A stretch of 64,000 bases of DNA from Janibacter sp. HTCC2649 (GTDB taxonomy: Bacteria > Actinomycetota > Actinomycetes > Actinomycetales > Dermatophilaceae), in the NCBI RefSeq assembly GCF_000152705.1, contig NZ_CH672413.1, positions 2,608,139 to 2,672,138 of the forward strand, in the 5' to 3' direction. The translations under genes were made by a program, and so were the position numbers. Numbering within the stretch: the stretch's first letter is position 1; every line of letters starts with the position of its first letter. Below are positions 17,171 to 51,659 of the stretch, one piece after another. The notes below the pieces were generated by a model that had not been told where the DNA came from, did not search any database, and worked only from the letters and a program-made list of their open reading frames with translations.

Positions 17171-17196
17171 GTCGTGCCCCCTTGCTTTGTGTTTGA

Positions 17197-23405: not shown

Positions 23406-23418
23406 CCGAGGTCAGCCC

Positions 23419-23652: not shown

Positions 23653-23679
23653 GTCGTGCCCCCTTGCTTTCCTGTTGCA

Positions 23680-23737
23680 CCACCGGGAGTCGGTGGCGAC
23701 ACAAGCAAGGATGACCGGGTATGCCGCCCAGATACGT
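23680..23737 (-). promoter_or_regulatory. composite upstream element, copy B (of pseudogene)
   Basis: Nearly identical to 17197-17254: ACGTATCT, GGCATACCCGG, TCATCCTTG and the CCACCG/CGGTGG hairpin. It has survived better than the coding part that follows. Bases 23738-23954 show no gene. Confidence 0.6.
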
Positions 23738-28345: not shown

Positions 28346-28614
28346 GTGTGTGACGTTTGCCCAACGTCGAGTGAAACCCGCAAACTTGGCAACAGTTGGT
28401 AACCTGAGGCGACATTGCGTCTTCAGTGGCCTTCTAATGGCAACTTGGAAACTCTCTCGGGCTTCCCTCGTTCGTCCCGCTCTGTGTGGATGCAACCAAC
28501 CGAACCGATTCCATCTGTGAGGGGCAGCGAGCCCGAGGTGCCGGTCTCCTTGATCAACAGGCCGAGAAATGCCGACGAGCTTGGTTGGCTGGGAAGGGTG
28601 GTAGAAATCTCCAT

Positions 28615-29889
28615 ATGGGTTCCGTCTCCGTTGATCAAATCGGGCCGGACGGCACCCTCCTTGCAGATGTCGACACCACTCTCAGTGAGAGCCGCAAGAA
28701 TGCGCTGCTGCTGCACGCTCTGCCCGGGGCCACGGTCGAGATCTACGCCAACGAACGGGTGATTCGTTTTCGTGACCAGATCATCCTCAAAAAGCAGGTA
28801 ACGCACCTAGGCAACCCGTGGCCAGGCTTCAAGAAGCGGATTCAGATCCCCAAGTCATGGCTCGTCGTGGAGCGCCAAGCGCGCGCAGATGATCTTGTCC
28901 CCCGGTTCGTGGGCATCTACCACTACGGCGAGGTCACGATCTTCGTTGACTTCGACCCCCGTACCTACGTCGGACGCAAGGCCAACAACTCCGCTGCGCA
29001 CGTATCGACCAACGACCTGTTCCAGGCGCAGACGTTGGGGCAGTTCTCGAGGGAAGATCACAACGCCAACCGACTCACGAGCATCCGAGCCGATGAGTTC
29101 GAGGCCTACTTGCTGGCCGGGTACGCAGCAGACCCTCGCGTCGAAGTTTTCGAGCAGTTCAACGCCGAGTTCCTGACTGGATCCGAGCTCGAGGCGCTAG
29201 TAGCGGTCAAGCAGATGCACGCGGCCTCTTGGCCGGACACATTCCAAGGTGAGTGGCCTGGCTTCTATCTCGAATACAGGCTCGACTCGTACCTCGACAG
29301 GGAATCTCACACTGATCTGGTCCAGTTCCAGAAGGAGAAGAAGCGAGGTCGGTTCGACTACGACCTCGTGCTCGCTTGGGATGGCGTGCTGGAGTTCTAC
29401 GGGGATCTCAAATCCTCCGACGTCACAAAGCATGTGTCACCAGGCAATGACGCTGAGGACCTCAGGCGGTGCGTCTCTGAGTACGGACGGTTCTGGTATG
29501 TCCTGTACGAGCACGAGACTCTCCACGCGCGTGACCACGGCGACGTCGCGACTGTCGAGTGGAACGAGTGGAGACGCTCGGTCGGCCATCAAGGTGCGAA
29601 GGACTTCAACCCGCTCTCATACGCCGGAAGGTTCAAGCAGTCTGTCCGGTACGTCTCCATGAAGATCCTCGAGCTCAACGAGGCGAACTTCGGCCTCGTC
29701 CTCGGTGACTTCAACCAGGGCAAGCAGCAAGACGGTGCCGCCAGAGCCATCAAGGTGATGATCAACAAGCGGAACATCGACAACTTCTTGATCTACTCGG
29801 ACAAGGTCGAGCCCGACCTTGCGGGCGGCACCTCAGGCCCGCCACCGGAAGCACGTGTAGGAGAAGCCGACCGGGATCGGCTCTTCTAA
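28615..29889 (+). CDS. putative type II restriction endonuclease
   Basis: A 424-residue protein. FDYDLVLAWDGVLEFYGDLK (residues 246-265) has the order of a PD-(D/E)xK nuclease core, with D249 or D255 as first acid and the D263-x-K265 pair. The N-terminal 110 residues are beta-rich, and the C-terminal tail is disordered (TSGPPPEARVG). It faces a C5-cytosine methyltransferase gene with 7 bases between the stops, the usual arrangement of a restriction-modification pair. Recognition sequence unknown. ATG 28615 is chosen as the first Met with homology-like sequence; its ribosome site is weak. Bases 28346-28614 hold no clear gene. Confidence 0.68.
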   Translation: MGSVSVDQIGPDGTLLADVDTTLSESRKNALLLHALPGATVEIYANERVIRFRDQIILKKQVTHLGNPWPGFKKRIQIPKSWLVVERQARADDLVPRFVGIYHYGEVTIFVDFDPRTYVGRKANNSAAHVSTNDLFQAQTLGQFSREDHNANRLTSIRADEFEAYLLAGYAADPRVEVFEQFNAEFLTGSELEALVAVKQMHAASWPDTFQGEWPGFYLEYRLDSYLDRESHTDLVQFQKEKKRGRFDYDLVLAWDGVLEFYGDLKSSDVTKHVSPGNDAEDLRRCVSEYGRFWYVLYEHETLHARDHGDVATVEWNEWRRSVGHQGAKDFNPLSYAGRFKQSVRYVSMKILELNEANFGLVLGDFNQGKQQDGAARAIKVMINKRNIDNFLIYSDKVEPDLAGGTSGPPPEARVGEADRDRLF

Positions 29890-29896
29890 CGCCCAG

Positions 29897-31315
29897 TCAG
29901 CCAGCTTGAGCATCCATGGCTGACCGCTCCAACGCGTCAGCCTCGAACGCGTGAGCTGAGGGGGACAACGCATCGCCGCTCGGGTTACGAGGGGCGTTCA
30001 GCACCGCTCGAGTCAGCCCCTTCGGTAGGTCCGCGGAATTCTGCTCGACGTGAGCGCGGAAGACGTGCCATGCCGCGCCTGCGGCGACTCCGTTCCCGAC
30101 CTGCTTGTACGAAGCCTGATCACGTTGGCTACCAAAGGCGAACGACCTTGGCAGCCCCTGCAGCCGCGCGGCCTCATGTGGCGTGAGCCTGCGTCCACGG
30201 CTGCCCACGATGGATGTCTGAGTGATGGCTACGAGTGCCGGAAGGTAAGTGGGCGCCTTCGCCCTGATCCCCGAGGGGCGGAAGTGCATGACGGTGTGCC
30301 ACAGCGACGCCGTGTCCTGGGCCTGCCACTCCAACTTCCTGCGCGAGTCAGGGAACTTAGCGAACACGGGGTTCGCCTTCTTCCACGCCTTGATGATGTC
30401 GCGGTGCTCGTCATAGAACCTAGCGTTCTTGACCAGGATGCTGGACTTCCATCGGGGCAGAGCTTCCAGCTCGAGAGGGTCGAGTCCACGCTCGGGGATC
30501 CAGGCATCGGCCCACAGGGGGAAGCCCGGCAAGCGCACGCCCCGTGCGGACCACATGCGCTGCACGAGGTCGTCCCACACGTTGATCCACTGGGTCTCAG
30601 CGGCTGTGAGCTTGTACTTGGCCAGGTCCGGGATGGAGGCGTCGTCATCGAGAATCCACTCGGCATCCCAGTCGCGGACGTTCCAACCATCCACCGGCCT
30701 GCGGGCAACGGTCGGTGGCACGTCGACCTCGGCCATCGCACGCTCAGGGCCGACGAACGTTCCGAGAATGAAGACCCGGTCCCTGACCTGAGGTGTTCCG
30801 CCTAGAGAGGGCGGAAGGAAATGTGGTGAGAAGACTGATGGCGTCGAGGACACCCGGTACCCCAACTCGCGCAAGGTCTGGATAATCACCTCCCACTCGT
30901 GGCGGTGGCGAGGGCCCGCAAGGTTGCGGACATTCTCAAGCAGTACAACTGCTGGCTGGCGCTCCTCAAGGATGCGAGCGATGTTCCAGAACAGGGTGCC
31001 TCGGGCCTCGTCCATGCCGCGCTGATAACCCGACTTCGAGAACGGCTGGCATGGGAAGCCAGCAGCCAGAACGTCATGGTTCGGCACGTCCACGGGAGCA
31101 TCGTCGGGGGTCGCGATCGTGATGTCCGTGTTGACGATGGGCTGTTGCGCGGTCGGCAGGGGGTCCACCCAGTTGCGGACGTAGGTCTGGCGTGCCTCGC
31201 GGTCGATCTCGGAGACGTAGACGCACCGGCCGCCAGCGTGATCGAGCATGGCGTGGAAGCCACCTATTCCAGCGAAGAGATCGACGTAGGTAAACGGCGT
31301 GATCCCTTGCTTCAT
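29897..31315 (-). CDS. DNA cytosine-5 methyltransferase
   Basis: A 472-residue enzyme with all main motifs: I FTYVDLFAGIGGFHAML, IV LAAGFPCQPFSKSG (catalytic Cys89), VI VVLLENVRNLAG, VIII GTPQVRDRVFILG, IX RRLTPHEAARLQGLPRSF and X YKQVGNGVAAG. The target-recognition region is about 150 residues between VIII and IX. It should methylate the site cut by the adjacent endonuclease. ATG 31315 gives the normal N-terminus; an in-frame start at 31396 is upstream of the promoter palindrome and is rejected. No ribosome site is visible and TAAGCT lies 7 bases before the ATG, so the transcript is probably leaderless. Confidence 0.92.
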   Translation of the reverse strand: MKQGITPFTYVDLFAGIGGFHAMLDHAGGRCVYVSEIDREARQTYVRNWVDPLPTAQQPIVNTDITIATPDDAPVDVPNHDVLAAGFPCQPFSKSGYQRGMDEARGTLFWNIARILEERQPAVVLLENVRNLAGPRHRHEWEVIIQTLRELGYRVSSTPSVFSPHFLPPSLGGTPQVRDRVFILGTFVGPERAMAEVDVPPTVARRPVDGWNVRDWDAEWILDDDASIPDLAKYKLTAAETQWINVWDDLVQRMWSARGVRLPGFPLWADAWIPERGLDPLELEALPRWKSSILVKNARFYDEHRDIIKAWKKANPVFAKFPDSRRKLEWQAQDTASLWHTVMHFRPSGIRAKAPTYLPALVAITQTSIVGSRGRRLTPHEAARLQGLPRSFAFGSQRDQASYKQVGNGVAAGAAWHVFRAHVEQNSADLPKGLTRAVLNAPRNPSGDALSPSAHAFEADALERSAMDAQAG

Positions 31316-31324
31316 AGCGCAAAG

Positions 31325-31346
31325 CTTAGCTGATTGGTCAGCTAAG
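31325..31346 (-). promoter_or_regulatory. methyltransferase promoter with perfect 9-bp operator palindrome
   Basis: CTTAGCTGA-TTGG-TCAGCTAAG is a perfect inverted repeat. On the minus strand TTGACT and TAAGCT are 16 bases apart and overlap the two arms, so a protein bound here would cover both promoter boxes. No separate controller gene is seen nearby; the methyltransferase itself could be the repressor. Confidence 0.6.
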
Positions 31347-31512
31347 TCAAGCATCCGAGCTGAGCGCGTGAAGTCGCCTGGCAGGGTCTCGGTCATGGCA
31401 AAGCAGCCCCTCGTCGTGCACGCCCTGGACCCTGATCCGCCGCGTGAGGTGTTGTGATCCGTACATGGCTGTTCATGCCATCACCCGGCACTGACACTGA
31501 TGATGTTTGTTG

Positions 31513-34256: not shown

Positions 34257-36116
34257 GTGTCGTCGTTGTTGCGCTGCTCTGCAGCGGGCTTCTCGGCGCT
34301 CGAGCTTGATCTTGAGCAGCGGTTGGCGCAGCAAATGAAGTGCGCGACCGGTCGCTATCCCTCTCCCGGCGAGCGGCGTTCGTGGAGTCGTAGCCTCCCC
34401 GTGCTCGCCGCGGATCTGCATGACGCGGGGCTCTCCGGAGTCGAGATGCTCGTCGAGTTCCAGTTGCCGCTTACGAGTAAGCGGGCAGATGTGGTGCTCG
34501 CCGGCGTCGATCGGCGAACGGGACTCCCGGGGTACGTCGTCGTTGAACTCAAACAATGGACCGACGCCGAGCGCTTTGAAGACAGCGATGAGCTCGTTGT
34601 AGTGGGCGGCTACGGAAGCCGACCCGTCACGCACCCTGCGGCCCAAGTCAGTGACTACGTCGACTACCTGACGGACTTCACAGCCTCCCTGGCAGACTCC
34701 GGTCAGAGCGTTCGCGGAGTCGCCTACTTGCACAATGCGACGGACTACGGAGTGAGTGACCTCCTGGCGTTCGGGGCGACACGCGACGGACGCATGTTCA
34801 CTGGCCAGCGAAGGGCCGAGTTTCAGGCCTATCTGTCCGACATTTTTGCTCCCACAAGTGGCGCGTCAGCTGCGGACCAGCTCGTCGGAAGCGCTATCCG
34901 CCCATCTCGACAACTGATGGCAGCCGCGGCAGATGAGGTCCAGCGGCGCGAAGTCTTCACTCTGCTCGATGAGCAGAAGGACGCTTACAACTACGTGCTC
35001 CACTCGGTGCGGAGAGCTGCTCAGTCCAACACCAAGACCGCAGTGGTGATCTCGGGAGGTCCCGGCAGCGGCAAGAGCGTCATCGCTCTGTCGCTATTAG
35101 GCGAGCTCAGCCGGCAGGGCCGCACGGTCATTCACGCGACCGGATCGCAGTCATTTACTCAGACGCTCCGAAAGGTCGCGGCCCAGGGCAACCCCCGCGT
35201 GCGGAAGGCCTTCCTCTACTTCAACTCCTTCATGTCGATGGAGCCCAACTCGTTGGACTGCGTCATCCTCGACGAGGCCCATCGAATCCGCGAGACCTCC
35301 GTTAATCGCTACACGCGCGCTGAGATGCGCACGGGCAGGGCGCAGGTCGACGAGTTGCTCTCCGTTGCCCACACACCGGTCTTCTTGCTCGATCAGCACC
35401 AGGTCGTGCGGCCGGGGGAGATGGGAACCGTGGCAGACATTCGAGCTGCAGCCGCCGCACGTGGAATCGACGTCATGCAGGTCGACCTCGATGCCCAGTT
35501 CCGGTGCGGCGGCTCACTCGAGTACGTCCGATGGGTTGAGGGTCTGCTCGGGCTCGGCGGTACGGAGGCCCATCAGTGGATCGGCGACGACCACTTCTCA
35601 GTCGAAGCGATGGAGAGCCCCGAGGAGCTTGAGGCGTGGCTGGCAGCCAAGCAGTCCGGCGGTTTCGGAGCACGTTTGTCGGCCGGCTACTGCTGGCCGT
35701 GGAGTGACCCGCGGCCCGACGGATCACTGGTTCCCGACGTACAGATCGGCGAGTGGTCTCGGCCCTGGAACCTCAAGGGCGACCGCTCCGTGGGTGGGGC
35801 ACCCCCCGCGCCCCTCTGGGCGACCGACCCCGCAGGTTTCGGACAGGTTGGCTGTGTCTACACGGCGCAGGGCTTCGAGTACGACTTTGCCGGCGTCATC
35901 ATCGGACCGGACATTGTATGGCGTGATGAAGGTTGGAGCATCGCGCGCGGGGCTAATAAGGACCCATCCCTGCGAAGCCTTACGCAGGTTCCCGATGCTG
36001 ACTTTGACCGGCTGGTGCGGAACATCTACAAGGTCCTGCTGACGCGTGGCATGCAAGGCGTAGGCATCTATTCGCCTGACGACGAGACGCTCCGACATAT
36101 CGCGTCATTGATCTGA
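34257..36116 (+). CDS. DUF2075 helicase with N-terminal nuclease-like domain
   Basis: A 619-residue protein. Residues 1-110 look like a PD-(D/E)xK nuclease: a Glu-rich helix, then LTSKRADVVLAG (Asp) and YVVVELKQW (E-x-K). An SF1-type motor follows: Walker A VISGGPGSGKSVIAL (about 270), Walker B CVILDEAHRIRE (about 338), FLLDQHQVVRPGE (motif III) and LDAQFRCGGSLEYVRW (motif IV). Near the end, VYTAQGFEYDFAGVIIG is followed by LLTRGMQGVGIY (motifs V and VI). This nuclease-DUF2075 architecture is common in defence islands. GTG 34257 has GGGAG upstream. Divergent from the MazG-like gene. Confidence 0.85.
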   Translation: MSSLLRCSAAGFSALELDLEQRLAQQMKCATGRYPSPGERRSWSRSLPVLAADLHDAGLSGVEMLVEFQLPLTSKRADVVLAGVDRRTGLPGYVVVELKQWTDAERFEDSDELVVVGGYGSRPVTHPAAQVSDYVDYLTDFTASLADSGQSVRGVAYLHNATDYGVSDLLAFGATRDGRMFTGQRRAEFQAYLSDIFAPTSGASAADQLVGSAIRPSRQLMAAAADEVQRREVFTLLDEQKDAYNYVLHSVRRAAQSNTKTAVVISGGPGSGKSVIALSLLGELSRQGRTVIHATGSQSFTQTLRKVAAQGNPRVRKAFLYFNSFMSMEPNSLDCVILDEAHRIRETSVNRYTRAEMRTGRAQVDELLSVAHTPVFLLDQHQVVRPGEMGTVADIRAAAAARGIDVMQVDLDAQFRCGGSLEYVRWVEGLLGLGGTEAHQWIGDDHFSVEAMESPEELEAWLAAKQSGGFGARLSAGYCWPWSDPRPDGSLVPDVQIGEWSRPWNLKGDRSVGGAPPAPLWATDPAGFGQVGCVYTAQGFEYDFAGVIIGPDIVWRDEGWSIARGANKDPSLRSLTQVPDADFDRLVRNIYKVLLTRGMQGVGIYSPDDETLRHIASLI

Positions 36117-36190
36117 TCTCAGTTCACCAACAACGCGGATCGACAGGCTTCCCGTAGGACATGCCTCCCCGCCTCCTCGAGAGGCTCGGC

Positions 36191-37084
36191 ATGTCGACCC
36201 ACATCATCCTTATCGATCACAACGTCCCTCAGCACTGGGACTACGCGAAGCAGAACGGCTTCTGGGACCTGCAGAAGGACTGGCAAGGGCTGATCGCCGG
36301 CGATGAGGCCTACTTCTGGATCACTGGCACCCCGGGCAGAGTCGTGGGACGAGCTCGCCTGACGAGCGGCAAGGTCCCTCTGCCCCTGGGCGCCCCACAT
36401 GCATGGTCTCCGCGGGACAGCCGTCGCGGCGACTACCACTTCAGGATCCAGCTCGCAGACTTCGAAGACATTCCCGTGGTTCGACTTAAGTGGGGCGAAG
36501 TCCGAGCCGCTACCAACAGCCCCGGTCGCCTCAACCCCGTCACAAGAATCCCGGATGCCGGAGTGTCTTGGTTGCGAGCACGTCTTGGAATGGCAACAGA
36601 CCCCTATGACGAGGCAATCACGGCCATCCGCCACAGCGGCAACGCCGACATCGACATAGAAGTCATGCTTGAGGACCGTCGCGTACGAGTACCTGCCTCC
36701 GTCGTTGTCAGACGTGGTGCCAGAGCGTTTCGCGATCAACTCCTGACGGCTTACGCAGGCCGCTGCGCAGTCACAGGAACGTCGACCGCGGGCGTGCTTG
36801 AGGCCGCACACATGTCTGACTACAAGGGTGACCAAACGGATCGTCCGTACAACGGGCTGCTCTTACGCGCTGACATCCACACGTTGTTCGACCTGAACCT
36901 GCTGACCATCACCACGCCCGACTACACGGTGCATGTTGCGCCCGAGGTCAAAGACAGCACCTATCGAGATCTCCACGGCAAACGGTCTGCGGTTTTGCCA
37001 GCGTCCATTCATGACAGACCCCACGTCGACCTGTTGGCGAAGCATAACTCCAAGTGCGACTGGCTAGCAAAGAAATCGAAATGA
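36191..37084 (+). CDS. EVE/PUA-like plus HNH endonuclease fusion
   Basis: A 297-residue protein. The N-terminal 140 residues (ILIDHNVPQHWDYAKQNGFW, then YFWITGTPGRVVGRARL) resemble the EVE/PUA superfamily that recognises modified bases. Residues 175-260 are an HNH_2 nuclease: YAGRCAVTGTSTAGVLEAAH, GLLLRADIHTLFDLNLLTI. This plan matches modification-dependent restriction enzymes that cut DNA with altered bases. ATG 36191 is chosen over 36161. The gene starts 74 bases after the DUF2075 gene in the same direction, possibly one unit. The specificity is inferred. Confidence 0.8.
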   Translation: MSTHIILIDHNVPQHWDYAKQNGFWDLQKDWQGLIAGDEAYFWITGTPGRVVGRARLTSGKVPLPLGAPHAWSPRDSRRGDYHFRIQLADFEDIPVVRLKWGEVRAATNSPGRLNPVTRIPDAGVSWLRARLGMATDPYDEAITAIRHSGNADIDIEVMLEDRRVRVPASVVVRRGARAFRDQLLTAYAGRCAVTGTSTAGVLEAAHMSDYKGDQTDRPYNGLLLRADIHTLFDLNLLTITTPDYTVHVAPEVKDSTYRDLHGKRSAVLPASIHDRPHVDLLAKHNSKCDWLAKKSK

Positions 37085-42271: not shown

Positions 42272-43276
42272 TCAGCGGTCGCCAGGCGACCCGTCGCGCG
42301 CGATCCCATACGCCGTTGCCAGGGCCGAATTGAACTCCAGCAAGGACCGACCTCTCGTGGACGCCGCCGGTATCGGGCTGGGATGTGTCGCCTTGATGAT
42401 CTCGATGCCCCGAGCCCGTAGGTCTCGCTCGTCCGGGGCGATCGACGCTTGAGCCCGTCGGCCAAGTGCCAATATCACGCGAATCTCCGGTGCCAGCTCG
42501 AGCAGTTCTTGAAGGTAGCGGCGTCCGCGTTCAACCTGAGCGGAAGTCACGGATCTGTTCTTCTTGCCATCCCCGACGTACCAAGGCACGGCATTCCAAG
42601 GTAGGCCGAAGGTTCGAGGCATCCCGGAGTCCTGATACCCAAGCCATACGTTCTTAGCAGTTTCGTCGTCGTTGTCAGCCGACAGCATTCGGGAACCGAG
42701 CGCAGCCGGCCCGGCAGGGGACTCAAGGAGGAAAAGGACTCTGGCGCTCACCCCTCCCGAGTCGGGGTCGACGTACGGCACAAAGACAGGTGGCGCATCT
42801 TCGCCATGTTCCGTCGCCCATTCCTCGGCGATCTCCGTACGGATCTGGTCAACGAACTGATTCACCGGTGCCACGTGGTCCTCCCCCCACCTGGCTTGCT
42901 TTGCAGCAAGGAAGGCCGAGTCCTTGTGCATCTTCGGGGCTGATGAGAATTCCGTCGGCAACGAGAGGACAGCCGGTGACAGGTTCGCGGGTGGCCGATC
43001 TGATTTGTGGGCCGACGGATGCTCCCTGAGTCGGTCGAGGACATCGGCCCACTCATCACCAAACGTGCCGCCACCAGCGTGCCTGTCGGCCAGAACCAAG
43101 TAGAAGGCCCACCCACGCAGAAAGTCGACGCCACACCACTCTGGAACCCGGTCATTCGCCTTCCACGAGCTGCGGGCGGAGCGCAGGAGTTTCTCAAGAT
43201 GTCCCGGCGACGCGCCAAGCCTTTCGTAGCCGTTGTAGGTGTGGGCCCAGTGGATCTGAGCTTGGGTGGGTGTCAT
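42272..43276 (-). CDS. uracil-DNA-glycosylase-superfamily protein (third gene of operon)
   Basis: A 334-residue protein. Residues 175-315 have the UDG fold signature: VLFLLESPAGPAALG (motif 1, 185-189), TFGLPWNAVPWYVG (225-233), EIRVILALGRRAQAS and IKATHPSPIPA (motif 2, 298-301). The N-terminal 170 residues are an added helical domain. UDG-fold enzymes remove uracil or modified bases; Brig1-type members act against phages with glucosylated hydroxymethylated bases. Target base unknown. Its ATG overlaps the upstream nuclease-like gene by 4 bases (ATGA), so the two are coupled. The stop faces the dioxygenase gene across 48 bases. Confidence 0.78.
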   Translation of the reverse strand: MTPTQAQIHWAHTYNGYERLGASPGHLEKLLRSARSSWKANDRVPEWCGVDFLRGWAFYLVLADRHAGGGTFGDEWADVLDRLREHPSAHKSDRPPANLSPAVLSLPTEFSSAPKMHKDSAFLAAKQARWGEDHVAPVNQFVDQIRTEIAEEWATEHGEDAPPVFVPYVDPDSGGVSARVLFLLESPAGPAALGSRMLSADNDDETAKNVWLGYQDSGMPRTFGLPWNAVPWYVGDGKKNRSVTSAQVERGRRYLQELLELAPEIRVILALGRRAQASIAPDERDLRARGIEIIKATHPSPIPAASTRGRSLLEFNSALATAYGIARDGSPGDR

Positions 43277-44181
43277 CGATACTGCCTCGTCTGCGCGTCT
43301 CGGATCGTTCTGACCACGTCCGGTGGGAGCTCGACGACCTCAATGTCGACACCCAACTCTCTGATGGCCGCGCCCTGCCAGGAGCGGCCTCTCAGGTGGG
43401 CGACTGCCAGTTCATCGGAGACGCAGAGGATCAGACGGTACGGGCGCTTCTCCAAGCTCTTGGCGATCCACGCAAGTTTGGTCGCATCGTTGACGAGCTT
43501 GTATTTCTGGGCCACCTTGGCCGGGCCCTGATGCGCCCAGCATTCGACGAGGACGCGCAAATCTTCACTTGCCCCATCCACCTCCACGAACGCGCCCGAA
43601 GGATGAGTCAATCGGCGAGGGTTCAGGCTCGTGTCAAGGCGTGCCCCGAGCAAATCGAGCATCACTCGCTCGGCGTTTCTTTGCTCATGTGAACTTCCAG
43701 CCGCGACTGACGGAGGTACTCCTGGCGGGGCCTGAGGCGCCGTCGGGCTCTCCGTCGACTGCCGCGGTGGTGAGACTTGAGGTGCCGCGCTTGAGGCGAT
43801 GGCCAAGGCCTTGGCGCGGAGTGCATCACTCGGCAGCCATCCAAGAACCTCCTCTCGCTCCAGCTCTGTGAAAGCAGCACCGGTCGACAGTGACCGAGCG
43901 AACTTGGCGGCGTGCTTGGCATCATGCCCGGGCTGATAAGTGCCCTTGGTGGACCCACCACAACCACAGAGACAAACCCGACCCTGCGGGTCGCGGATCG
44001 CGTTGACCAATTTTCCTGAAGGCCCGACCCTGCGGCTCAGGAGGCCCTGAGCCTCCAGGCGTCGACAGATTTGGTTGACCTGTTGCCGCGGAGAAATCTC
44101 GCACCGCTGGGCAAGTGCGTCATCGTCCAGCGGGATATCGCTCGCACGAAGGGCACTGAGGAGCCTGTCAGCGTTCGTCAT
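43273..44181 (-). CDS. winged-helix plus nuclease-like protein (second gene of operon)
   Basis: A 302-residue protein. Residues 1-60 form a winged helix (ALAQRCEISPRQQVNQICRR, LEAQGLLSRRVGPSGK). Residues 68-92 hold a Cys-rich zinc-like motif (RVCLCGCGGSTKGTYQPGHD). A Pro/Ser linker follows. Residues 165-245 look like a PD-(D/E)xK or related nuclease (GAFVEVDGASED, LVECWAHQGPAKVAQKYKLV with Glu200, Asp202, Glu213 and Lys222/226). Together these suggest a DNA-binding nuclease. ATG 44181 lies inside the end of the first gene (14-base overlap). Activity inferred from pattern. Confidence 0.7.
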   Translation of the reverse strand: MTNADRLLSALRASDIPLDDDALAQRCEISPRQQVNQICRRLEAQGLLSRRVGPSGKLVNAIRDPQGRVCLCGCGGSTKGTYQPGHDAKHAAKFARSLSTGAAFTELEREEVLGWLPSDALRAKALAIASSAAPQVSPPRQSTESPTAPQAPPGVPPSVAAGSSHEQRNAERVMLDLLGARLDTSLNPRRLTHPSGAFVEVDGASEDLRVLVECWAHQGPAKVAQKYKLVNDATKLAWIAKSLEKRPYRLILCVSDELAVAHLRGRSWQGAAIRELGVDIEVVELPPDVVRTIRDAQTRQYR

Positions 44182-44794
44182 CAGCAGCCTTCTGGCTCAC
44201 ACCACCATCAACAACGGTGTTGAGGCGTTCCCGAATCTGGTCTCTTTCGCGGGCGTATGCGGCAGCCCCACCGCCATCGAGAACAGGTATGCGGATGACT
44301 GGGGGTTGACCGAACGCCGGTGCGAGAAGGTCACGCAGGGCATCGTGGTAGGCCCGCTGCCTTTGGCGTCCGCCTGCACCGAAGCCCACGGCTGCCTTGG
44401 AGGCTCGGTACCGGTCCGAGCGAGGTGCCAACCGGGCACATAACGCCACGTAGCCCGCATAGTCGAAACCTAGGAGTACCCCGCGTGGATAGAGCATGAG
44501 CGACGTCGCTCGAAAAGACGTGAAGTGCTGGCTCTCGTCAATCTCGATGAAGGTCCCGGTGTTCGGATCCACGAAGTCACCCTGCAGCGGCGTCGACCGC
44601 TTCCCAGCTTGTGCAGCAAGATCTCCGCCAAGCGCGATGAAGATCCTTTCCAGCGCGCTCCGTACGTCCACTGCCTCAGGTGGAAGGCCCAAGTGACCAC
44701 GTTGATTGATCCACGGCACTTTCGCCAGATCAAGGTGCAGGCCGTCCTTGGCCGCCGCCGCTCCGAAAGCACGCTGACAGTCCCCTACAGGCAC
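44168..44794 (-). CDS. nuclease-like protein (first gene of operon)
   Basis: A 208-residue protein from GTG 44794, with an ideal ribosome site GGAGGTGA. A central core LQGDFVDPNTGTFIEIDESQ continues HFTSFRATSLMLYP, with acidic residues Asp73, Glu84, Asp86 and Glu87 and then Gln-His. This resembles the DUF7255-type proteins and a PD-(D/E)xK-like arrangement. Then GFDYAGYVALC and a basic helical part follow. It opens the three-gene operon that ends with the UDG-fold protein. Function inferred from pattern and context only. Bases 44795-44880 show no gene. Confidence 0.65.
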   Translation of the reverse strand: MPVGDCQRAFGAAAAKDGLHLDLAKVPWINQRGHLGLPPEAVDVRSALERIFIALGGDLAAQAGKRSTPLQGDFVDPNTGTFIEIDESQHFTSFRATSLMLYPRGVLLGFDYAGYVALCARLAPRSDRYRASKAAVGFGAGGRQRQRAYHDALRDLLAPAFGQPPVIRIPVLDGGGAAAYARERDQIRERLNTVVDGGVSQKAADDER

Positions 44795-44880
44795 CGAATC
44801 ACCTCCGTCACGACGCTCGCTATGACAAGGATGCCCGTGAACTCTCTAACGACACTCCTGTTCGCCCAAAACGTTTGGCC

Positions 44881-44902
44881 TGCCGCCCGCTCGAGGGCGG
44901 CA
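44881..44902 (-). terminator. palindromic terminator of the pknG operon (family copy 1)
   Basis: TGCCGCCC and GGGCGGCA pair around GCTCGA, 19 bases after the FHA gene stop. The core GCCGCCCGCTCGAG and the flank GGCATACTC-CCGTT-TG-TCGT recur at 61418-61470, so the two hairpins share one origin. Confidence 0.7.
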
Positions 44903-44920
44903 TACTCACCGTTTTGTTCG

Positions 44921-45700
44921 TCAGGCCAGGGCGGAGATCTCGTCGTCGCTGGACGGGCGGAGCACGATCCGGGTCCACGAGCCCACGTAGATCCGGTCGT
45001 CCGCGTCGACTTCGCGCTTCTGGCCGGTCGGGATCGACGTCGTGGGGAGGTCGCCGACCGAGTCGCCGATGTAGGTGCCGTTGGACGAGGCGAGGTCCTC
45101 GACCCACCAGCGGGTGCCGTCGGTCGTCAGCTGGGCGTGACGCCGGCTGACGCCGTTGTCGACACCGCAGTCGATGTCGGGGTGGATGCCGCGGCTGTTC
45201 GACACGCGGCCAATGAGAAGCGAGGTGTTGCGCAGGGCGAAGACCGCCGGCGGACCCTGGCTCGGCAGCGGGTCCGAGCTGCCCTGAGCGGTGTACCAAG
45301 CGGGGTCAATCCAGAGCTCAGCCACCCACGGCGTGGCAAGGTCCTTGGAGGTGTTGGCTGGTGCCTCAACCGGAGGGGCAGCCGCTGCGGAGCTGTCTGC
45401 GCCACGCGGGAGAGTGCCGGTCGTGTGGTCGTAGCCGCAGACCTCACAGAACAACGCGTCGGGTGAGTTGGGTCCTCCGCAGTTGGGGCACGGCCGCGTC
45501 GCTGACTCCGGTTCCGGGGCGGCGGCCGGGGTGTCCGAGGGAGAGGAGGAGGCGGCAGGGTCGCCTGCCGAACCAGCCTCGCCGGACGCACCCTCCGCAG
45601 CAGGGTGAACGCCGGTCGGGGCGCCGTCGGCATTCATGGCCGCCCCGCAGATGTCGCAGTAGTCGGTGGCCGTGGAGTCGTGGCCGCTGGGGCACTTCAT
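44921..45700 (-). CDS. zinc-ribbon FHA-domain protein
   Basis: A 259-residue protein. Two zinc ribbons lie at the start: MKCPSGHDSTATDYCDICGA and CPNCGGPNSPDALFCEVCG. After an Ala/Pro linker comes an FHA domain (LLIGRVSNSRGIHPDIDC; GVSRRHAQLTTDG; VEDLASSNGTYIGD), with the Arg, Ser-Arg-Arg-His and Ser-Asn-Gly motifs that read phosphothreonine. It is likely the reader of PknG phosphorylation. ATG 45700 overlaps the VWA stop by 4 bases. Last gene of the long operon, followed by a terminator. Confidence 0.9.
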   Translation of the reverse strand: MKCPSGHDSTATDYCDICGAAMNADGAPTGVHPAAEGASGEAGSAGDPAASSSPSDTPAAAPEPESATRPCPNCGGPNSPDALFCEVCGYDHTTGTLPRGADSSAAAAPPVEAPANTSKDLATPWVAELWIDPAWYTAQGSSDPLPSQGPPAVFALRNTSLLIGRVSNSRGIHPDIDCGVDNGVSRRHAQLTTDGTRWWVEDLASSNGTYIGDSVGDLPTTSIPTGQKREVDADDRIYVGSWTRIVLRPSSDDEISALA

Positions 45701-46977
45701 GGCTTGCGGACCCGGGTGGTCTTCGTCGACGCGGTGTCCAGGGCCATCTCGTCGGCCTTCTCGACAGCCTTCTTGAGCTGGACCGTGCCGGCGTCGGCGT
45801 CCTCGATGTCGACGACCTTGCGCAGTTTGGCGGTCGCCTCGTCGTTGCCCGTCTCGGCAGCCAGCTGCACGGCGCGACCGAGCTTGGTCGTCGCGGTCTC
45901 CTCGTCGCCGACCGCCTTGGCGGCCAAGCCCTCCTGGATGACCTGGGCGAGCTCGGCCTGGCCCGTGTAGTGGGCGACCTGCTGGTCGATCCGGGTGGTC
46001 AGGGCGGAGTCGTCGGACCACTTCGCCTTGACCAGGCCCTGCGCCTTGACCTCGTCGCCCACGACCACCTGGACACGCGCGGCCAGCTGCTCCTGGCCGA
46101 TCGCCTTGGCTGCCAGCCGGATGGCGACGTGGTAGTCGCGGGACTCGTCGGACCACGCGCCGGTCGGATAACCACCCGTCAGGTCGTTGACCACCGAACG
46201 GCGACCGGTGAGGTCGTCGACGGTGGGGGAGACCTGCTTTACGAAGACGACCGTTGAGCCCTGCGGAGCCCAGACCCGCAGCTCGGCGTCGGCGACACCG
46301 CGTGACATCGACGTGCGCATGATGGCCTGGAACTCGGCCCGCAGCTGGCTGGGCGCCGGGATGATGTCGATGGTGCCGAGCAGTGCCTGGGCGATCGGCC
46401 TGATGTCGGCCACCTTCCAGTCGACGCCGACACCTCGGCAGTCGCACTGGTAGTAGCCGGTGGCCCGGTCGGTGGCCGCCTGGAGCACCTCTGGCGCCTC
46501 GTTGTTCTCACCGTCGGTGAGCAGGATCGCGTGGCGTTGCTGCACTTGGGGCACCGAACCGAAGACGACCCCGGCGAGGTCGAGCCAGGTGCTGATGACG
46601 GTCCCGCCGCCAGCTCGCAGCTGCGCCACCGCCGCGGACGCCTGGGCGCGTGAGGTCGCCGTCATCTGGACCATGGCGGGCCCGCTCGTCACGTTCGGAT
46701 AGACGAGGAAGGCGGCGCCGTTGCCCGAGATCACGGAGAAGTAGGTGCCGTCGACGATCTCGGCCAGCGCGGCCGTCGCGGCCTGCTTGGCGGCCTCCAT
46801 CGACTCGACACCCATCGACCCCGACGTGTCGATGATGATGATCTCCCCAGCTGCTGCCGAGCCACCCTGACCGGCCACGCCGGCACCCGAGCACGTGACC
46901 GAGACGATCGCGTTGACGTCGGTGCCCCCGTCGGGAAGGAACTCGTTCTGGTAGACCGCCGCGGTGAACTCAGCCAT
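45697..46977 (-). CDS. VWA-domain protein
   Basis: A 426-residue protein. The von Willebrand A domain has the MIDAS IIIIDTSGSMGVESM (Asp50), then GGTVISTWLDLA and HAILLTDGENNEAP, and is followed by a beta-rich region and a helical C-terminus (AVEKADEMALDTASTKTTR). VWA proteins act as metal-dependent scaffolds, often with AAA ATPases such as the one at 53946-55565 in this operon. AAAGG lies before ATG 46977, which overlaps the phosphatase stop by 8 bases. Confidence 0.88.
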   Translation of the reverse strand: MAEFTAAVYQNEFLPDGGTDVNAIVSVTCSGAGVAGQGGSAAAGEIIIIDTSGSMGVESMEAAKQAATAALAEIVDGTYFSVISGNGAAFLVYPNVTSGPAMVQMTATSRAQASAAVAQLRAGGGTVISTWLDLAGVVFGSVPQVQQRHAILLTDGENNEAPEVLQAATDRATGYYQCDCRGVGVDWKVADIRPIAQALLGTIDIIPAPSQLRAEFQAIMRTSMSRGVADAELRVWAPQGSTVVFVKQVSPTVDDLTGRRSVVNDLTGGYPTGAWSDESRDYHVAIRLAAKAIGQEQLAARVQVVVGDEVKAQGLVKAKWSDDSALTTRIDQQVAHYTGQAELAQVIQEGLAAKAVGDEETATTKLGRAVQLAAETGNDEATAKLRKVVDIEDADAGTVQLKKAVEKADEMALDTASTKTTRVRKP

Positions 46978-48193
46978 GGATCTGCCTTTCGTCGTTCGTG
47001 AGATTCTCCACCACCGGCTCGATGACCGCCTCCACCACCGGCACGGGGCCGACCCGGGCCAGCGTGACCGTGATGTTGTCCTGACCGCCCTGCGCATTGG
47101 CCCAGGCCACCAGGGCCGAGGCGAGGGCGAGCGGCTCCATCGTGCCTGCCGCGTCGATCTGTGCACGCAGTGCCGCCGGCTCCGAGGCGTAGTTCCACAG
47201 GCCGTCCGAGCAGACGAGCAGCCAACCCGGCTGGTCAACCGTCACGGTGACCACCCGAGGCACCACGTCGGGGCTGTCGGAGCCGAGCCACTTCGTGATC
47301 GCGTGGGCCTGCGGGGAGGCCTCGGCCTCGAGCCGAGGGTGCCCGGCGTCGATGAGCATCTGGGCCATCGAGTCATCGGTGAGCAGCTGGGTCCCGCCGC
47401 CCGCGTCGGGGAGCAGGTAGGCACGGGAGTCACCGATGACAGCGCACCGCAGCGTTGCCCCGTCGACGAGGCCGACGACGAATGTGCACGACGCGGGTCG
47501 CGGCGAAGACGGCTCGGTGTTCGCGATGACCGCGGTGTTGGCGGCAGCGGCCGCCAACGTGAGCACCCGGGTCGCTGCGGCATCGGCACTGGTCGCACCA
47601 CCGATGCCCTTGGGCAGTGGCGCTCGCAGCACGTCGAGGGCGGCACGCGCTGCCGCCAGCGACGCCACGTCGGAGTCGTCGGAGTTGGAGACGCCGTCGC
47701 ACACGACGAGGACGGCCCGCCCGCCCTGAGTCGGCTCGGCATACAGCGCCATCGCGTCTTCGTTGCGGTGATGCTTGATGCCGCGGTCGCAGACCCCGGC
47801 GACCCACGGAGCCGGTGCGTCCTCGAAGTGGTCGCGCTCCGACGGAGCCTTGGAGCCACAGACCGTGCAGTACCCGTCGTCGCCCACCGGCGAGCCACAG
47901 CTGGCACAGGCACGCGGACCAGCAACCGTGGGCGGCGCAGAGGCGGACGTGTTGCGGTTTGTCGGCGTGCTGATCGGGCTGAGATCGTCGAGGGGCGACT
48001 CGGGACCTGCCCCATCCGCAGCCGCAGCCGAGACGTCAGCGACGCTCGCGCCGCACGCCTCGCAGAACTGGGCACCCGCCGCCAACGTGGCCCCGCACGA
48101 CGGGCAGGCCGACCGAGCAGCCTGGGCCGCCTGCGCAGCCCCGTCAGCAGGGTCGTTCGGAGTCGCCTCGGCGGGCGCCGGCAACTGGGTCAC
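46970..48193 (-). CDS. PP2C-type protein phosphatase with zinc ribbons
   Basis: A 407-residue protein. Two Cys-rich ribbons (CPSCGATLAAGAQFCEACG; CASCGSPVGDDGYCTVCG) precede a PP2C domain: VCDRGIKHHRNEDAMALY, VLVVCDGVSNSDDSD, RCAVIGDSRAYLL, LLVCSDGLWNYA and GGQDNITVTLA supply the metal-binding Asp residues. It removes phosphate from Ser/Thr and so should reset the PknG kinase encoded next to it. GTG 48193 overlaps the kinase stop (GTGA). Confidence 0.92.
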   Translation of the reverse strand: MTQLPAPAEATPNDPADGAAQAAQAARSACPSCGATLAAGAQFCEACGASVADVSAAAADGAGPESPLDDLSPISTPTNRNTSASAPPTVAGPRACASCGSPVGDDGYCTVCGSKAPSERDHFEDAPAPWVAGVCDRGIKHHRNEDAMALYAEPTQGGRAVLVVCDGVSNSDDSDVASLAAARAALDVLRAPLPKGIGGATSADAAATRVLTLAAAAANTAVIANTEPSSPRPASCTFVVGLVDGATLRCAVIGDSRAYLLPDAGGGTQLLTDDSMAQMLIDAGHPRLEAEASPQAHAITKWLGSDSPDVVPRVVTVTVDQPGWLLVCSDGLWNYASEPAALRAQIDAAGTMEPLALASALVAWANAQGGQDNITVTLARVGPVPVVEAVIEPVVENLTNDERQIHG

Positions 48194-50514
48194 GTGCTCG
48201 TCCAGGGGCGCACCGTGTTGGCGCGGTCGACGAGGGCGATCCGCTCCTCGCGGGTGCCGGCCTCGCGGGCCAGCGCCCGATAGCTCGCCTCGAGCGCGGT
48301 GCGCAGGGTCTCGTCTTGGGCGGCATACGGCCCGATGTTCAACGGTTGTGGTCCGGTCTCGCCGACGATGGCGATCGCCTTCTCGAGGATCCGGGCGGTG
48401 AGGCCCTCACGCTCGACGGTGTCGAGCCGCACCCCGTCGACGCTGGTCAGCGCCTGGCCCAGCCGGCCGAGGTCCTTGTCGGATCCCGCCAGCAGGACGT
48501 CGGCGCGCAGTCGGCGGGCCTCGCCATAACCGCGGCTCGTCGACGGCACGAGGTCAAGCGCCTTCACCGCGCCATCGGTGTCGCCGGCCGCCGCCCGCAA
48601 CCGGGCGATCCCGAACGCCGCGGGCGCGACATAAGCAGCGTCCGTCTGGGCACACGTGCGATAGAGGCCTTCGGCGACGTCACCCTGACCGCCCGCCTCA
48701 CACGCGACGGCGAGCGCCAGCTTGGGTGCCAGCTCGCCGGGAACCTGTTGATAGACAGCGCTGAACGACGCCTGCGCATCCGCCCAGTCGGAGGACTGCA
48801 GCGACGCGAGCCCCTGGAGCCACAGCGCCCGCCAGTCCCACGGGTCGAGGGCGAGCAGCTGCGCCGCCTGCTCCTTGGTCGCCGAGCCGTTGCCGTCGAG
48901 GAGGTACTCCGCGCCGCGGGCGAGGTGGACCTCGGCCGTCGCCTCGGGCGCCTTGGCGAGGTCGGCGAGCCGCTCCTGGGGTTCGCCGGGGGCCAGGCTG
49001 ACCAGCCAGGCGTATTGCGCGTCGGTCGTGTCGGGGCGCAGCGACGGCAGCTGGTTCCAGTCGATGCGGGCCGTGGAGACCGCCGGGGTCGTGAAGCTCA
49101 CCGACGCGGCGGAGGTCGTGCTCGTGCCCACGGTGCGGGCGGCGACAACCTCGCGCAGCACTCCAAGAGCCTGGGCTCGCAGCTCGTCAGCGGAGGCGAA
49201 CCGGTCGGCCGGATCAGGAGCGCAGCACTTGGCGACGAGCCAGTAGAACGAGTCGTGGTCGCGGAACACCGGGGTGGTCGCCGGGTCGGGCAGTTTCGAC
49301 AGGTAGGTCGACTGGTAGCCCTTGAACTCCATCGTGAGGACGACGAGGGTGCGGCCGATCGTGTAGACGTCCGAGGCGATCGACGTCCCCGACTCGGCGA
49401 CCTCCGGTGCCTGGTAGCCGACCGTCCCGTAGATCGCCGAGTCGTCGTCGTCGATCCGGCGCACCCCGCCGAGGTCGATCAGCTTGACGGCGTCACCGAC
49501 CTGGATGAGGTTGTCCGGCTTGAAGTCGCAGTAGACGAGCCCGAGGTCGTGCAGGTACTGGAAGGCCGGCATGATCTCGACGATGTAGGCGAGGGCCTGG
49601 TCGACGGGGAACGGGTCGTAGGAGCCGTGGGCTCGCATCCGCTCCTTGAGCAGCTGCTTGAGCGACTCGCCGCCGACGTACTCCATGACGATGTAGCCGG
49701 CCTCGTCGTGGGTGACGAAGTTGTAGATCTCGACGATGCTCGGGTGCTCGACCTGGGCGAGGAACCGCTGCTCCGCGATCGCCGCGGCCAGTGCGTCCTT
49801 GTCGCCGGAGTTGAGCAGGCCCTTGAGGACGACCCAGCGGTCAGAGACGTTGCGGTCGCGCGCGAGGTAGATCCAGCCGAGTCCGCCGTGCGCGAGCGCA
49901 CCGGCGACGAGGTACTGCCCTCCGACGAGATCGCCGGACTTGAGCTTGGGCGTGAAGGAGTATGCCGTGCCGCACTTGGGGCAGAACCCTTCCGGTCTCC
50001 CGGGCTGGCCGTCGATCGAACGACCCACTGCCGCACCGCAGTTGGCGCAGCTGCGTTTGTCCTCGGGCACCGAGGGGTTGGTCTGCACGGCCTTGGCCGG
50101 GTCGATGGCGCGCGCCGGCGGGATCGTCGTGATTCCCGCTCCGAGGCGGGCGGCGCGGGTCCGGGACGACCCGACCCGGCGGGTCGCCGTCGAGCCCGAG
50201 CCGGCGCGACGCGAGCCGATCGCTGCCGACTGGATCCGGTGCGACGTGGAGGCAGTCGAGGCCGTGCCGGCGACCCCCGCGGGCACGGACCCAGCATCGC
50301 TGGCGGGAGTTCCGCCTGGCGTCCCGCACACGTCGCAGTAGCCGTCGGCGATCGTGCCCGAGCAGCCGGGCTGGGCACACTTCGCGCCGTCGGACGCCGC
50401 GGGCGCCGAGGATGCCCCGGTCGCGGCCGAGGCCAGCTCGGACGGCGGCATCCCGCAGACGTCGCAGTAGCCGTCGGTGACGGTGCCCGAGCATCCGGGC
50501 TGCTCACACTTCAC
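48190..50514 (-). CDS. pknG: PknG-type serine/threonine protein kinase
   Basis: A 774-residue kinase. Two short zinc ribbons (CEQPGCSGTVTDGYCDVCG; CAQPGCSGTIADGYCDVCG) and the rubredoxin-like PknG ribbon (CANCGAAVG, then GFCPKCGTAYS) precede the kinase domain: GALAHGGLGWIYLARD, VVLKGLL (Lys), VYCDFKPDNLIQ (catalytic Asp), KLIDLGGVRRID and YGTVGYQAPE. The C-terminal 300 residues are TPR helices. PknG regulates 2-oxoglutarate metabolism through GarA-type FHA proteins in response to amino acids sensed by GlnH/GlnX, both encoded upstream. The start is GTG 50514, in GTGA overlap with the previous gene. Confidence 0.95.
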   Translation of the reverse strand: MKCEQPGCSGTVTDGYCDVCGMPPSELASAATGASSAPAASDGAKCAQPGCSGTIADGYCDVCGTPGGTPASDAGSVPAGVAGTASTASTSHRIQSAAIGSRRAGSGSTATRRVGSSRTRAARLGAGITTIPPARAIDPAKAVQTNPSVPEDKRSCANCGAAVGRSIDGQPGRPEGFCPKCGTAYSFTPKLKSGDLVGGQYLVAGALAHGGLGWIYLARDRNVSDRWVVLKGLLNSGDKDALAAAIAEQRFLAQVEHPSIVEIYNFVTHDEAGYIVMEYVGGESLKQLLKERMRAHGSYDPFPVDQALAYIVEIMPAFQYLHDLGLVYCDFKPDNLIQVGDAVKLIDLGGVRRIDDDDSAIYGTVGYQAPEVAESGTSIASDVYTIGRTLVVLTMEFKGYQSTYLSKLPDPATTPVFRDHDSFYWLVAKCCAPDPADRFASADELRAQALGVLREVVAARTVGTSTTSAASVSFTTPAVSTARIDWNQLPSLRPDTTDAQYAWLVSLAPGEPQERLADLAKAPEATAEVHLARGAEYLLDGNGSATKEQAAQLLALDPWDWRALWLQGLASLQSSDWADAQASFSAVYQQVPGELAPKLALAVACEAGGQGDVAEGLYRTCAQTDAAYVAPAAFGIARLRAAAGDTDGAVKALDLVPSTSRGYGEARRLRADVLLAGSDKDLGRLGQALTSVDGVRLDTVEREGLTARILEKAIAIVGETGPQPLNIGPYAAQDETLRTALEASYRALAREAGTREERIALVDRANTVRPWTST

Positions 50515-51659
50515 GAGGCGGTCCTCCCAGCATGCTTCACCGGTGCGGACTGCCCGGCGAGATCGATCCACGCGAGATAGGCACCCACGAGGTGCTCGAC
50601 CACGGCGACCGGGGTAGGCCTCCGGTCGAGCAGGTCCTGCGCCAACCGAGCAGCGGCAACCACATCGGGCTGGGTGCTCACGCCGGTCGCCTCTGCCTTG
50701 ACCTGGGCGGCCGCGAGCCGGTCGGCGAGGGAAGACCGGGAAGCCAGCGCAGCGGCATACCGCTGCTCTGCAATGTCCATCGCCTGACCGACACGGACCA
50801 GACGTTCCCCGTATGCCGCGAGCGCACCCGGGTCTGTCGGTGCGGCACCCAGCAGGGAGACGTCGGGGACGGCGTTGCGCGGGGCCGGGAGAACGGTGGC
50901 GACGGCTTCATCGGCCAACGCGCTGACGTGGGCCTCGCGGGTGGTGAGGTCGGCGCGCACCCGCTCGAGCGCAGCGAACTGGTCACGAGCCTCACGGCGC
51001 TGCACCCCACCGACGATGAGGTCACGCTCGGTGCGGGAGGCGTCGTTCTCGAGCGGACCAAGGAGTCCACCGACGTCGCCACCCCGCTCGAGTCGGACCC
51101 CGACGTCGGCGACCCGAGTGGTCAGGGCGTCGAGCTGGCGCTGGGCGGTGGGCCGGCTGGTGGGGGGTTCGAGAGCGACCTGGTCGTGCAGCCGGTCGAG
51201 CTGGGCACGCAACGAGCGAAGCCGACGGGCGCTCTCCTCGACCGCCGGGGCCAGACCGAGCCGGGCCCGCAGCGCACCGGCGAGGGCATCGGAGAGGCGG
51301 CACGCCTCTGGCACCGAGACCATGGCGCCAGCGGCAGTGGCCGCCGCGCTGTCGAGCCGGCCCCAGATGAGCACGGCGATCCGGTCGAGGTCGCTGGCGT
51401 CGACGCGACCGCCAGCGAACGCCTTCTCGAGCTGGTCGCGGCGATCGGCCACCGACTTCCACAGGGCCATGGAGAGGACGACATCGCCGGAGACCTCGTG
51501 GTGTCGTGGCGACGTCAGCGCTGCCCGGTCGATGTCGTCGAGCTCGGCCCGCCGTCCGGCGACCCAGGCGTCGAGCTCGCCGAGATAGGCCAGAACTGCT
51601 GCAGGAGTGGGCCGCTGCGCCAGTCCACCCGGAGCGACCGGCGCGAGGACGTCGCTCAC
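50511..51659 (-). CDS. helical protein between glnH and pknG
   Basis: A 382-residue cytosolic protein, almost all helix with coiled-coil stretches (ARRLRSLRAQLDRLHDQ; RREARDQFAALERVRADLTT). No catalytic motif. GTG 51659 overlaps the glnH stop and its own stop overlaps pknG (GTGA at both ends). It may link the membrane sensor to the kinase; inferred from position. Family not recognised. Confidence 0.82.
   Translation of the reverse strand: MSDVLAPVAPGGLAQRPTPAAVLAYLGELDAWVAGRRAELDDIDRAALTSPRHHEVSGDVVLSMALWKSVADRRDQLEKAFAGGRVDASDLDRIAVLIWGRLDSAAATAAGAMVSVPEACRLSDALAGALRARLGLAPAVEESARRLRSLRAQLDRLHDQVALEPPTSRPTAQRQLDALTTRVADVGVRLERGGDVGGLLGPLENDASRTERDLIVGGVQRREARDQFAALERVRADLTTREAHVSALADEAVATVLPAPRNAVPDVSLLGAAPTDPGALAAYGERLVRVGQAMDIAEQRYAAALASRSSLADRLAAAQVKAEATGVSTQPDVVAAARLAQDLLDRRPTPVAVVEHLVGAYLAWIDLAGQSAPVKHAGRTAS

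Follow-up and report, generated by a model that had tools for sequence, protein, structure and literature searches.

An overlapping three-gene unit at the edge of a Janibacter defence hotspot joins a putative UDG-superfamily glycosylase to two candidate nucleases

Within a 64,000-nucleotide stretch of the genome of Janibacter sp. HTCC2649 (contig NZ_CH672413.1, positions 2,608,139 to 2,672,138; the window, whose own coordinates are used throughout), two protein families whose relatives often lie in restriction-rich neighbourhoods are combined with a mobile family of glycosylases in one overlapping unit of three genes, designated here, in the order of their transcription, gene 3, gene 2 and gene 1. 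We tentatively read this unit as a restriction-type cassette of co-expressed genes at the margin of a defence hotspot, for which base excision followed by nuclease cutting would be the likeliest mechanism. An earlier, sequence-only reading had proposed three genes overlapping by 14 and 4 bases, and we reproduced exactly these open reading frames (ORFs) on the minus strand, at 44168–44794 (gene 3, 208 amino acids with a GTG start), 43273–44181 (gene 2, 302 amino acids) and 42272–43276 (gene 1, 334 amino acids), the longer overlap lying between genes 3 and 2 and the shorter between genes 2 and 1. All three starts are preceded by purine-rich, ribosome-site-like stretches ending 6–8 bases 5' of the start, namely GGAGG for gene 3 and, within the preceding genes, AGAAGG for gene 2 and GAGG for gene 1. 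Relatives of each of the three proteins were found elsewhere. Pfam revealed no methyltransferase among the three genes, and NCBIfam and PADLOC scans returned nothing for any of them. The genes and their parts are as follows.

44168–44794, minus strand: gene 3, 208 amino acids, divergent DUF7255 protein and putative Vsr/DUF559-like nuclease (Pfam, alignment, model)
44510–44578, minus strand: core motif of gene 3, residues 73–95 (D..G..E-x-D..HF..R), from an 8-row alignment; hhalign against DUF559 aligns D73, E84, D86 and H90
43273–44181, minus strand: gene 2, 302 amino acids, with winged helix, Cys/His stretch and PD-(D/E)XK-like domain (Pfam, alignment, model, phage-profile match)
43996–44181, minus strand: winged helix of gene 2, residues 1–62 (MarR_2 in 11 of 29 members; model; MarR-type Foldseek matches)
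43792–44001, minus strand: Cys/His-rich stretch of gene 2, residues 61–130 (phrog_5390, E 1e-10; Arthrobacter phage matches)
43276–43692, minus strand: nuclease-like domain of gene 2, residues 164–302, with E171, D202, E213, K228, D232 and K235 (alignment, model)
42272–43276, minus strand: gene 1, 334 amino acids, member of the uracil-DNA glycosylase (UDG) superfamily with an extra N-terminal domain (PF03167; profile matches to TM0511 and other UDGs)
42983–43276, minus strand: N-terminal domain of gene 1, residues 1–98 (free-standing relatives L075 and L084)
42317–42922, minus strand: glycosylase core of gene 1, residues 119–320, with E185, N228 and H298 (family alignment, profile matches)

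The assignment of gene 1 to the glycosylase superfamily, made in the sequence-only reading, was supported. The protein matched the Pfam UDG family PF03167 (E 1.6e-5, 25.4 bits against a curated cut-off of 24.3), and a family profile built from 22 rows retrieved 30 Protein Data Bank (PDB) matches at E<=1, 27 of them UDG-type, led by two entries of TM0511 (1vk2; E 1.3e-5 and 1.6e-5) and followed by 2d3y (E 0.0018), which we take to be a family 5 UDG, and by type-4 or UdgX (6ail) chains (E 0.004–0.021). Three matches outside the UDG superfamily, a LacI-type protein (0.0016), a sugar-binding protein (0.014) and an ExoU chaperone (0.49), were judged to be noise. None of the 30 matches carries the name Brig, and the window protein used alone as a PDB query found no UDG. 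The profile spans most of the domain in the UDG structures, and the family alignment (from which 6 of 27 loci, L080, L086, L089, L091, L094 and L097, were excluded for broken or badly bounded frames), in which the three motifs carry E185, N228 and H298, aligns with TM0511 and a type-4 chain, including what we assume to be the superfamily's hallmarks, an acid/proline motif 1, an asparagine in motif 2 and H-P-S in motif 3. Gene 1 differs from these structures in being distant from them and in carrying an extra N-terminal domain. That domain is real, since residues 6–98 match a free-standing small protein in two of 296 genomes of the class (G433 and G425) and the 20 listed plasmid matches of gene 1 begin only at residue 88–119; in a second sample, of 296 genomes of the phylum, it was matched only in the window's own genome. 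These family comparisons support a UDG-superfamily protein, a putative glycosylase, fused to a small N-terminal domain.

Relatives of gene 1 occur in 20 of the 296 class genomes (its own genome and the two with the free-standing domain being counted) and in 97 of 72,556 plasmid records, with query coverage below 80% in each, and 16 of the 20 plasmid relatives listed are annotated as uracil-DNA glycosylase; there were none in 50,697 phage records or in a single-protein scan of viral contigs. On plasmids their neighbours include toxin-antitoxin-type genes (Paracoccus), LysR and TDT-transporter genes (Sphingobium, Cryobacterium), transposases (Streptomyces) and a molybdopterin enzyme (Deinococcus). 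In two Rhodococcus aetherivorans plasmids (L006, L138) the gene 1 relative is followed, in the same direction, by a gene of the GIY-YIG nuclease family. Elsewhere, an ADP-ribosylglycohydrolase and a DSPc protein lie near a free-standing copy of the gene 1 N-terminal domain (L098:5420–7093); a Brig1 homologue adjoins a predicted ADP-ribosyl glycohydrolase according to the available part of PMC11078745.

For gene 2, described earlier as a winged-helix protein with zinc-like and nuclease-like parts, the winged helix and the nuclease-type fold stood up; the protein also has a Cys/His stretch that is shared with phage proteins. Pfam gave only weak winged-helix matches, all under the cut-off, and the arenavirus endonuclease at E 0.23. 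In the structure model (mean predicted local distance difference test, pLDDT, 84.7), the block of residues 171–300 reaches pLDDT 93–98, whereas the relative placement of the domains is unsure because the predicted template modelling (TM) score, pTM, is 0.51. The core of this block is alpha-beta-beta-beta-alpha-beta (helix 165–182, strands 187–192, 198–204 and 210–215, helix 223–242, strand 249–254). Invariant in 20 rows of the family are Q167, E171, D202, E213, A216, G219, K228, D232, K235 and L236, of which D202 and E213 form an acidic pair on strands of the core; in a wider set of 22 rows K235 is again invariant, K228 and D232 are kept in at least 90%, and D202 is E in three. The lysine expected two residues past the second acid of a PD-(D/E)XK site is missing, position 215 being W; the conserved K228 and K235 sit in the next helix, as in known variants of this fold. 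Foldseek gave no match at E 0.001 or better and listed mainly winged-helix proteins, with weak matches to BstEII (E 0.0065, TM 0.27) and to the endonucleases of lymphocytic choriomeningitis virus (LCMV; 0.013) and Pichinde virus (0.020), at query-normalised TM 0.23–0.27. Against a 12-row DUF559 alignment (cleaned from 17 rows chosen by motif presence among 24 loci), hhalign scored 24.05, compared to a maximum of 17.22 for 100 column-shuffled decoys, with a probability of 9%. The modelled core and the conserved residues support a predicted nuclease-type, PD-(D/E)XK-like fold in the C-terminal part of gene 2. In Pfam, gene 2 itself matched none of the Mrr, GmrSD-like, type I and PvuII-like families.

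The conserved acids and lysines of gene 2 resemble those of the arenavirus L-protein endonuclease, where, in the portion of PMC2940758 available, the LCMV site comprises E51, D89, E102, K115, D119 and K122 and is a PD-(D/E)XK variant. Gene 2 has E, D and E in the same order and, in the helix following the core, K-x3-D-x2-K, and it matched these enzymes weakly by three kinds of search, including phmmer against their PDB sequences (E 0.10–0.21). In contrast, no score was significant (TM 0.23–0.26), the gene 2 family profile failed to recover the arenavirus endonuclease chains, and gene 2 is bacterial, fused to a winged helix and found near restriction genes. Such a likeness could reflect convergence or a very ancient shared fold. 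The winged helix is itself a widespread module, joined to various C-terminal parts in several phyla, and may be read from these fusions as a portable DNA-binding module; 28 of the 40 loci excluded from the gene 2 alignment (19 of 59 were used) match the winged helix only. Such fusions in other phyla include L053, L054, L056, L023 and L067, with what looks by eye like a PD-(D/E)XK domain in L023 and repeats in L067. Among 50,697 phage records, 29 matched gene 2, all of them Arthrobacter phages, and in the 20 listed the match runs only through the Cys/His stretch and neighbouring residues (43/68–118). A viral-contig scan with alignments yielded two loci for gene 2 and one for gene 3.

Gene 3 had been called DUF7255-like with an acidic nuclease-type core, of which the family stands (PF23913, E 1.5e-10, 41.4 bits, cut-off 27) and the nuclease assignment is plausible but unproven. 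Eight aligned rows have in common D73, G80, E84, D86, H90, F91, R95, Q146, R147 and D151, among others, and the D..E-x-D..H layout recalls DUF559 and Vsr; hhalign against DUF559 scored 20.9, above all 100 decoys (maximum 16.05), but with a probability of 2% and with no Pfam match of gene 3 to Vsr or DUF559. The model is good (pLDDT 87, pTM 0.85), and 18 of the 35 named rows among 50 listed viral-model matches are restriction, Vsr, DUF559 or other endonucleases, which is suggestive only. The protein may thus be a Vsr/DUF559-like nuclease, judging from the motif. It is rare, being found in 4 of 149 genomes of the family (its own included) and in none of the eight other genomes of the genus, with DUF7255 in 7 of 396 genomes of the phylum (own included); no relative was found in the 50,697 phage records, in plasmids or in the single-protein viral-contig scan, and a literature search found no paper naming DUF7255.

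The neighbours of relatives elsewhere may link genes 2 and 3 to restriction. We surveyed 6 kb around each locus with a panel of 18 restriction- or methyltransferase-related proteins (tblastn, 1e-8) and found panel matches at 9 of 21 gene 2 loci and 5 of 10 gene 3 loci, compared to none of 20 control windows, which were stretches of five genomes at sites picked by the analyst. These raw counts are inflated because the panel was drawn largely from the same loci; without self-donated matches they become 6 of 21 for gene 2 and 2 of 10 for gene 3, and with near-duplicate loci merged gene 2 retains 5 of 17 (p 0.014 versus controls). Conversely, some counts are lowered because some loci span less than 12 kb, including six gene 1 loci with 3.5-kb flanks. 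By Pfam, the genes near gene 2 relatives encode type I R and M subunits, DUF5655, GmrSD_N, Mrr and an N6/N4 methylase, together with a PvuII-like enzyme and a further methylase, and enzymes of the Mrr, GmrSD-like, type I and PvuII-like kinds lie within 6 kb in several loci. Those near gene 3 relatives encode an N6/N4 methylase, ResIII/DUF3427, a D12 methylase and Mrr.

The unit borders a conserved operon, and two further features mark this border.

44857–44925, minus strand: GC-rich hairpin, possible terminator, between the FHA gene and gene 3 (folding and shuffles)
44920–50764, minus strand: conserved flank with a PknG-type operon (FHA, VWA, PP2C, PknG), edge of the hotspot (90% identity to G121)

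A gap of 126 bases separates gene 3 from the upstream FHA gene, the last of the PknG-type operon (PknG, PP2C, VWA, FHA). The hairpin in this gap is strong: a 131-nucleotide fold has an energy of −52.1 kcal/mol (z −2.56), and 3 of 200 shuffles were as good. The hairpin has CAAAACG/CGTTTTG arms and stands at the hotspot edge, near the end of the identity with G121. Because of it, the three genes are probably a unit of their own, separate from the PknG operon. They could instead be the tail of that operon, since a simple terminator scan did not list the hairpin (44857–44925) and detected no promoter-like site; against this stands the hairpin itself. The GC content at third codon positions (GC3) is 0.70, 0.68 and 0.63 for genes 1, 2 and 3, respectively, whereas two genes from the PknG operon have 0.90 and 0.85.

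The sequence-only reading placed the unit at the edge of a defence-rich island, and comparison with a sister genome, G121, agrees. Among eight other genomes of the genus, the PknG operon's VWA gene is present in G121 alone. The 90% identity of G121 to the window extends over 44920–50764 and ends there on the low-coordinate side, below which the two genomes differ. Beside this edge G121 carries a 400-amino-acid gene, an AAA_5 ATPase (McrB-like in our reading), a DEAD helicase and an MmeI-type enzyme, whereas on the same side the window carries an MTaX1-type type II enzyme, a DruM2-like C5-methyltransferase, a HATPase protein, a Schlafen group 3 helicase, an HNH protein, a MazG-like match (below cut-off), a HipA-like gene, a PIN protein and transposases. 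The locus resembles a defence hotspot whose cargo can be exchanged, the three genes being the last cargo before the conserved operon, and the unit was probably acquired. The far edge, at 15502–17254 of the window by comparison with G121, is less certain, since a portion of the G121 sequence there has further matches at 23416–23737 and 4162–4216 and may be a repeated element. Within the island, the HATPase protein (which we take to be MORC-like), the MTaX1-type type II enzyme (PADLOC E 4e-177) and the DruM2-type C5-methyltransferase (29897–31396, E 7e-254) follow one another at 26630–31396 and are likely a separate restriction-modification set; the methyltransferase lies ~11 kb from the three-gene unit, with an IS110-type transposase gene in between. 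At 34257–37084, the Schlafen group 3 helicase (PF09848, E 8e-84) adjoins an HNH_2 protein (36161–37084), which weakly matches a phosphorothioate-DNA restriction model, under that model's cut-off.

We propose that gene 1 would remove a non-canonical base, be it uracil, a modified pyrimidine or some other base found in phage DNA, leaving abasic sites; that gene 2, directed by its winged helix and acting with or assisted by gene 3, would cut at or near these sites; and that cutting would turn a repairable lesion into a break. The glycosylase would then fill the position that, beside relatives of gene 2 in other loci, belongs to Mrr, GmrSD-like, type I or PvuII-like enzymes. We count in favour of this proposal the overlaps, the start sites, the hairpin, the low GC3, the island edge, the UDG assignment, the gene 2 core with its conserved acids and lysines, and the restriction neighbours of genes 2 and 3, with Brig1, Brig3 with BapA, and R.PabI as precedents. 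Several results weigh against it. Restriction panel matches were found near gene 1 relatives at none of 17 loci (six with only 3.5-kb flanks), and three of the six plasmid regions examined show metabolic or transport genes next to the gene 1 relative. Host uracil repair is probably already covered, since the genome has four further Pfam UDG matches besides gene 1. In the wider gene 2 alignment, 7 of the 22 rows have Q in place of E213, for which reason part of that family may be inactive, and the fold of gene 3 has no significant Foldseek match (best E 0.96 in the PDB and 0.18 among viral models). Finally, the recurring system implied by the sequence-only reading failed its co-occurrence check: at least two of the three genes were found in 7 of 193 loci (tblastn, E 1e-3), and all seven are the window's own stretch.

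This linkage count covers 46 loci with the gene 2 C-terminal domain, 45 with the gene 1 core and 22 with gene 3 (own copies included, some places twice); for many of the loci the flanks extend only 1.5–6 kb, and distant relatives escape tblastn. By genome, gene 3 was found in none of 16 with gene 2 (in a search without a positive control), and gene 2 in none of six with gene 3 (the same search found gene 2 in two other genomes). Of the 19 genomes that contain gene 2 or gene 3, one, G072, has a gene 1 relative, far from its gene 2 relative; in G072, G409, G240, G035 and G150 relatives of two genes are on other contigs or far apart. The absence of recurrence argues against an established system, and the tight overlaps argue for joint expression. 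On these searches a conserved glycosylase-plus-nuclease system is not supported; the three-gene combination was seen in this genome only, and joint anti-phage action is a guess rather than a known system.

Other readings account for parts of these data. Genes 3 and 2 might form a two-protein restriction module with the glycosylase as a downstream passenger having its own repair or defence role, which we hold to be somewhat unlikely: restriction-rich neighbourhoods attach to genes 2 and 3 only, and the neighbours of gene 2 relatives change from one locus to another, but genes 2 and 3 are themselves unlinked in every other one of the 193 loci, and the 4-base overlap of gene 1 and its own ribosome-site-like sequence are what coupled expression predicts. 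Unlikely, too, is that three independent defence or repair genes accreted in the hotspot and share nothing beyond transcription; no gene pair recurs in the loci and genomes searched and the cargo of G121 differs, as accretion would have it, yet the two tight overlaps are consecutive and genes 2 and 3 share a restriction-type background. A bolder version of the excision mechanism, a three-protein base-excision restriction machine in which an arenavirus-like gene 2 and its DUF7255 partner would cut abasic sites and represent a new, partner-swapping nuclease class, is in our view quite unlikely. We consider it very unlikely that the unit is a mismatch-repair accessory to cytosine methylation, with a Vsr-like nuclease and a glycosylase acting on T:G or U:G mismatches from deamination. 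The DruM2-type C5-methyltransferase in the same island and the DUF559/Vsr-like motif in gene 3 fit such a role; however, the methyltransferase lies far off beyond a transposase gene, the methylases beside relatives of gene 3 belong to the N6/N4 or D12 types (L173, L134), gene 3 lacks a Pfam Vsr or DUF559 match, and gene 2 would be left without a role.

Excision followed by cutting, our preferred though tentative reading, has partial counterparts among known systems. Glycosylase defence had been regarded in the sequence-only reading as a single-gene affair of the Brig1 type, a view now outdated, since Brig3 works with BapA in a two-gene operon according to the accessible portion of PMC13160076, which also provides Brig2 as a third glycosylase of phage defence beside Brig1 and Brig3. 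Compared by description, Brig1 resembles gene 1 as a UDG-superfamily protein in a defence island, and its homologues, as far as the excerpted text of PMC11078745 goes, are mostly from Actinobacteria and many lie near defence genes; they are reported there as annotated 'hypothetical proteins', in contrast to the mostly uracil-DNA glycosylase annotations of gene 1's listed plasmid relatives. Brig3 shares with the present unit an operon with a partner, although BapA is a glucosyl hydrolase and not a nuclease in the part of the source at hand. R.PabI likewise uses base excision as restriction, promoted by apurinic/apyrimidinic (AP) endonucleases in the partial text of PMC10273834, but has a HALFPIPE fold and excises within its recognition sequence unless this is methylated, whereas the present unit lacks a methyltransferase and gene 1 is UDG-like.

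Phage defence by glycosylases is a young field (Brig1 dating from 2024 and Brig3 with BapA from a 2026 preprint), and our literature search on it found no case with a dedicated nuclease. If true, the proposed mechanism would place excision and strand cutting in one operon and would answer how abasic sites become lethal to a phage instead of being repaired. If the three proteins do not act jointly, gene 2 would still represent a nuclease family for which no Pfam model reaches its cut-off and the NCBIfam and PADLOC scans listed nothing. This family, with its lysines in the helix, is met repeatedly near type I, Mrr, GmrSD-like and PvuII-like genes, and it is a candidate restriction component.

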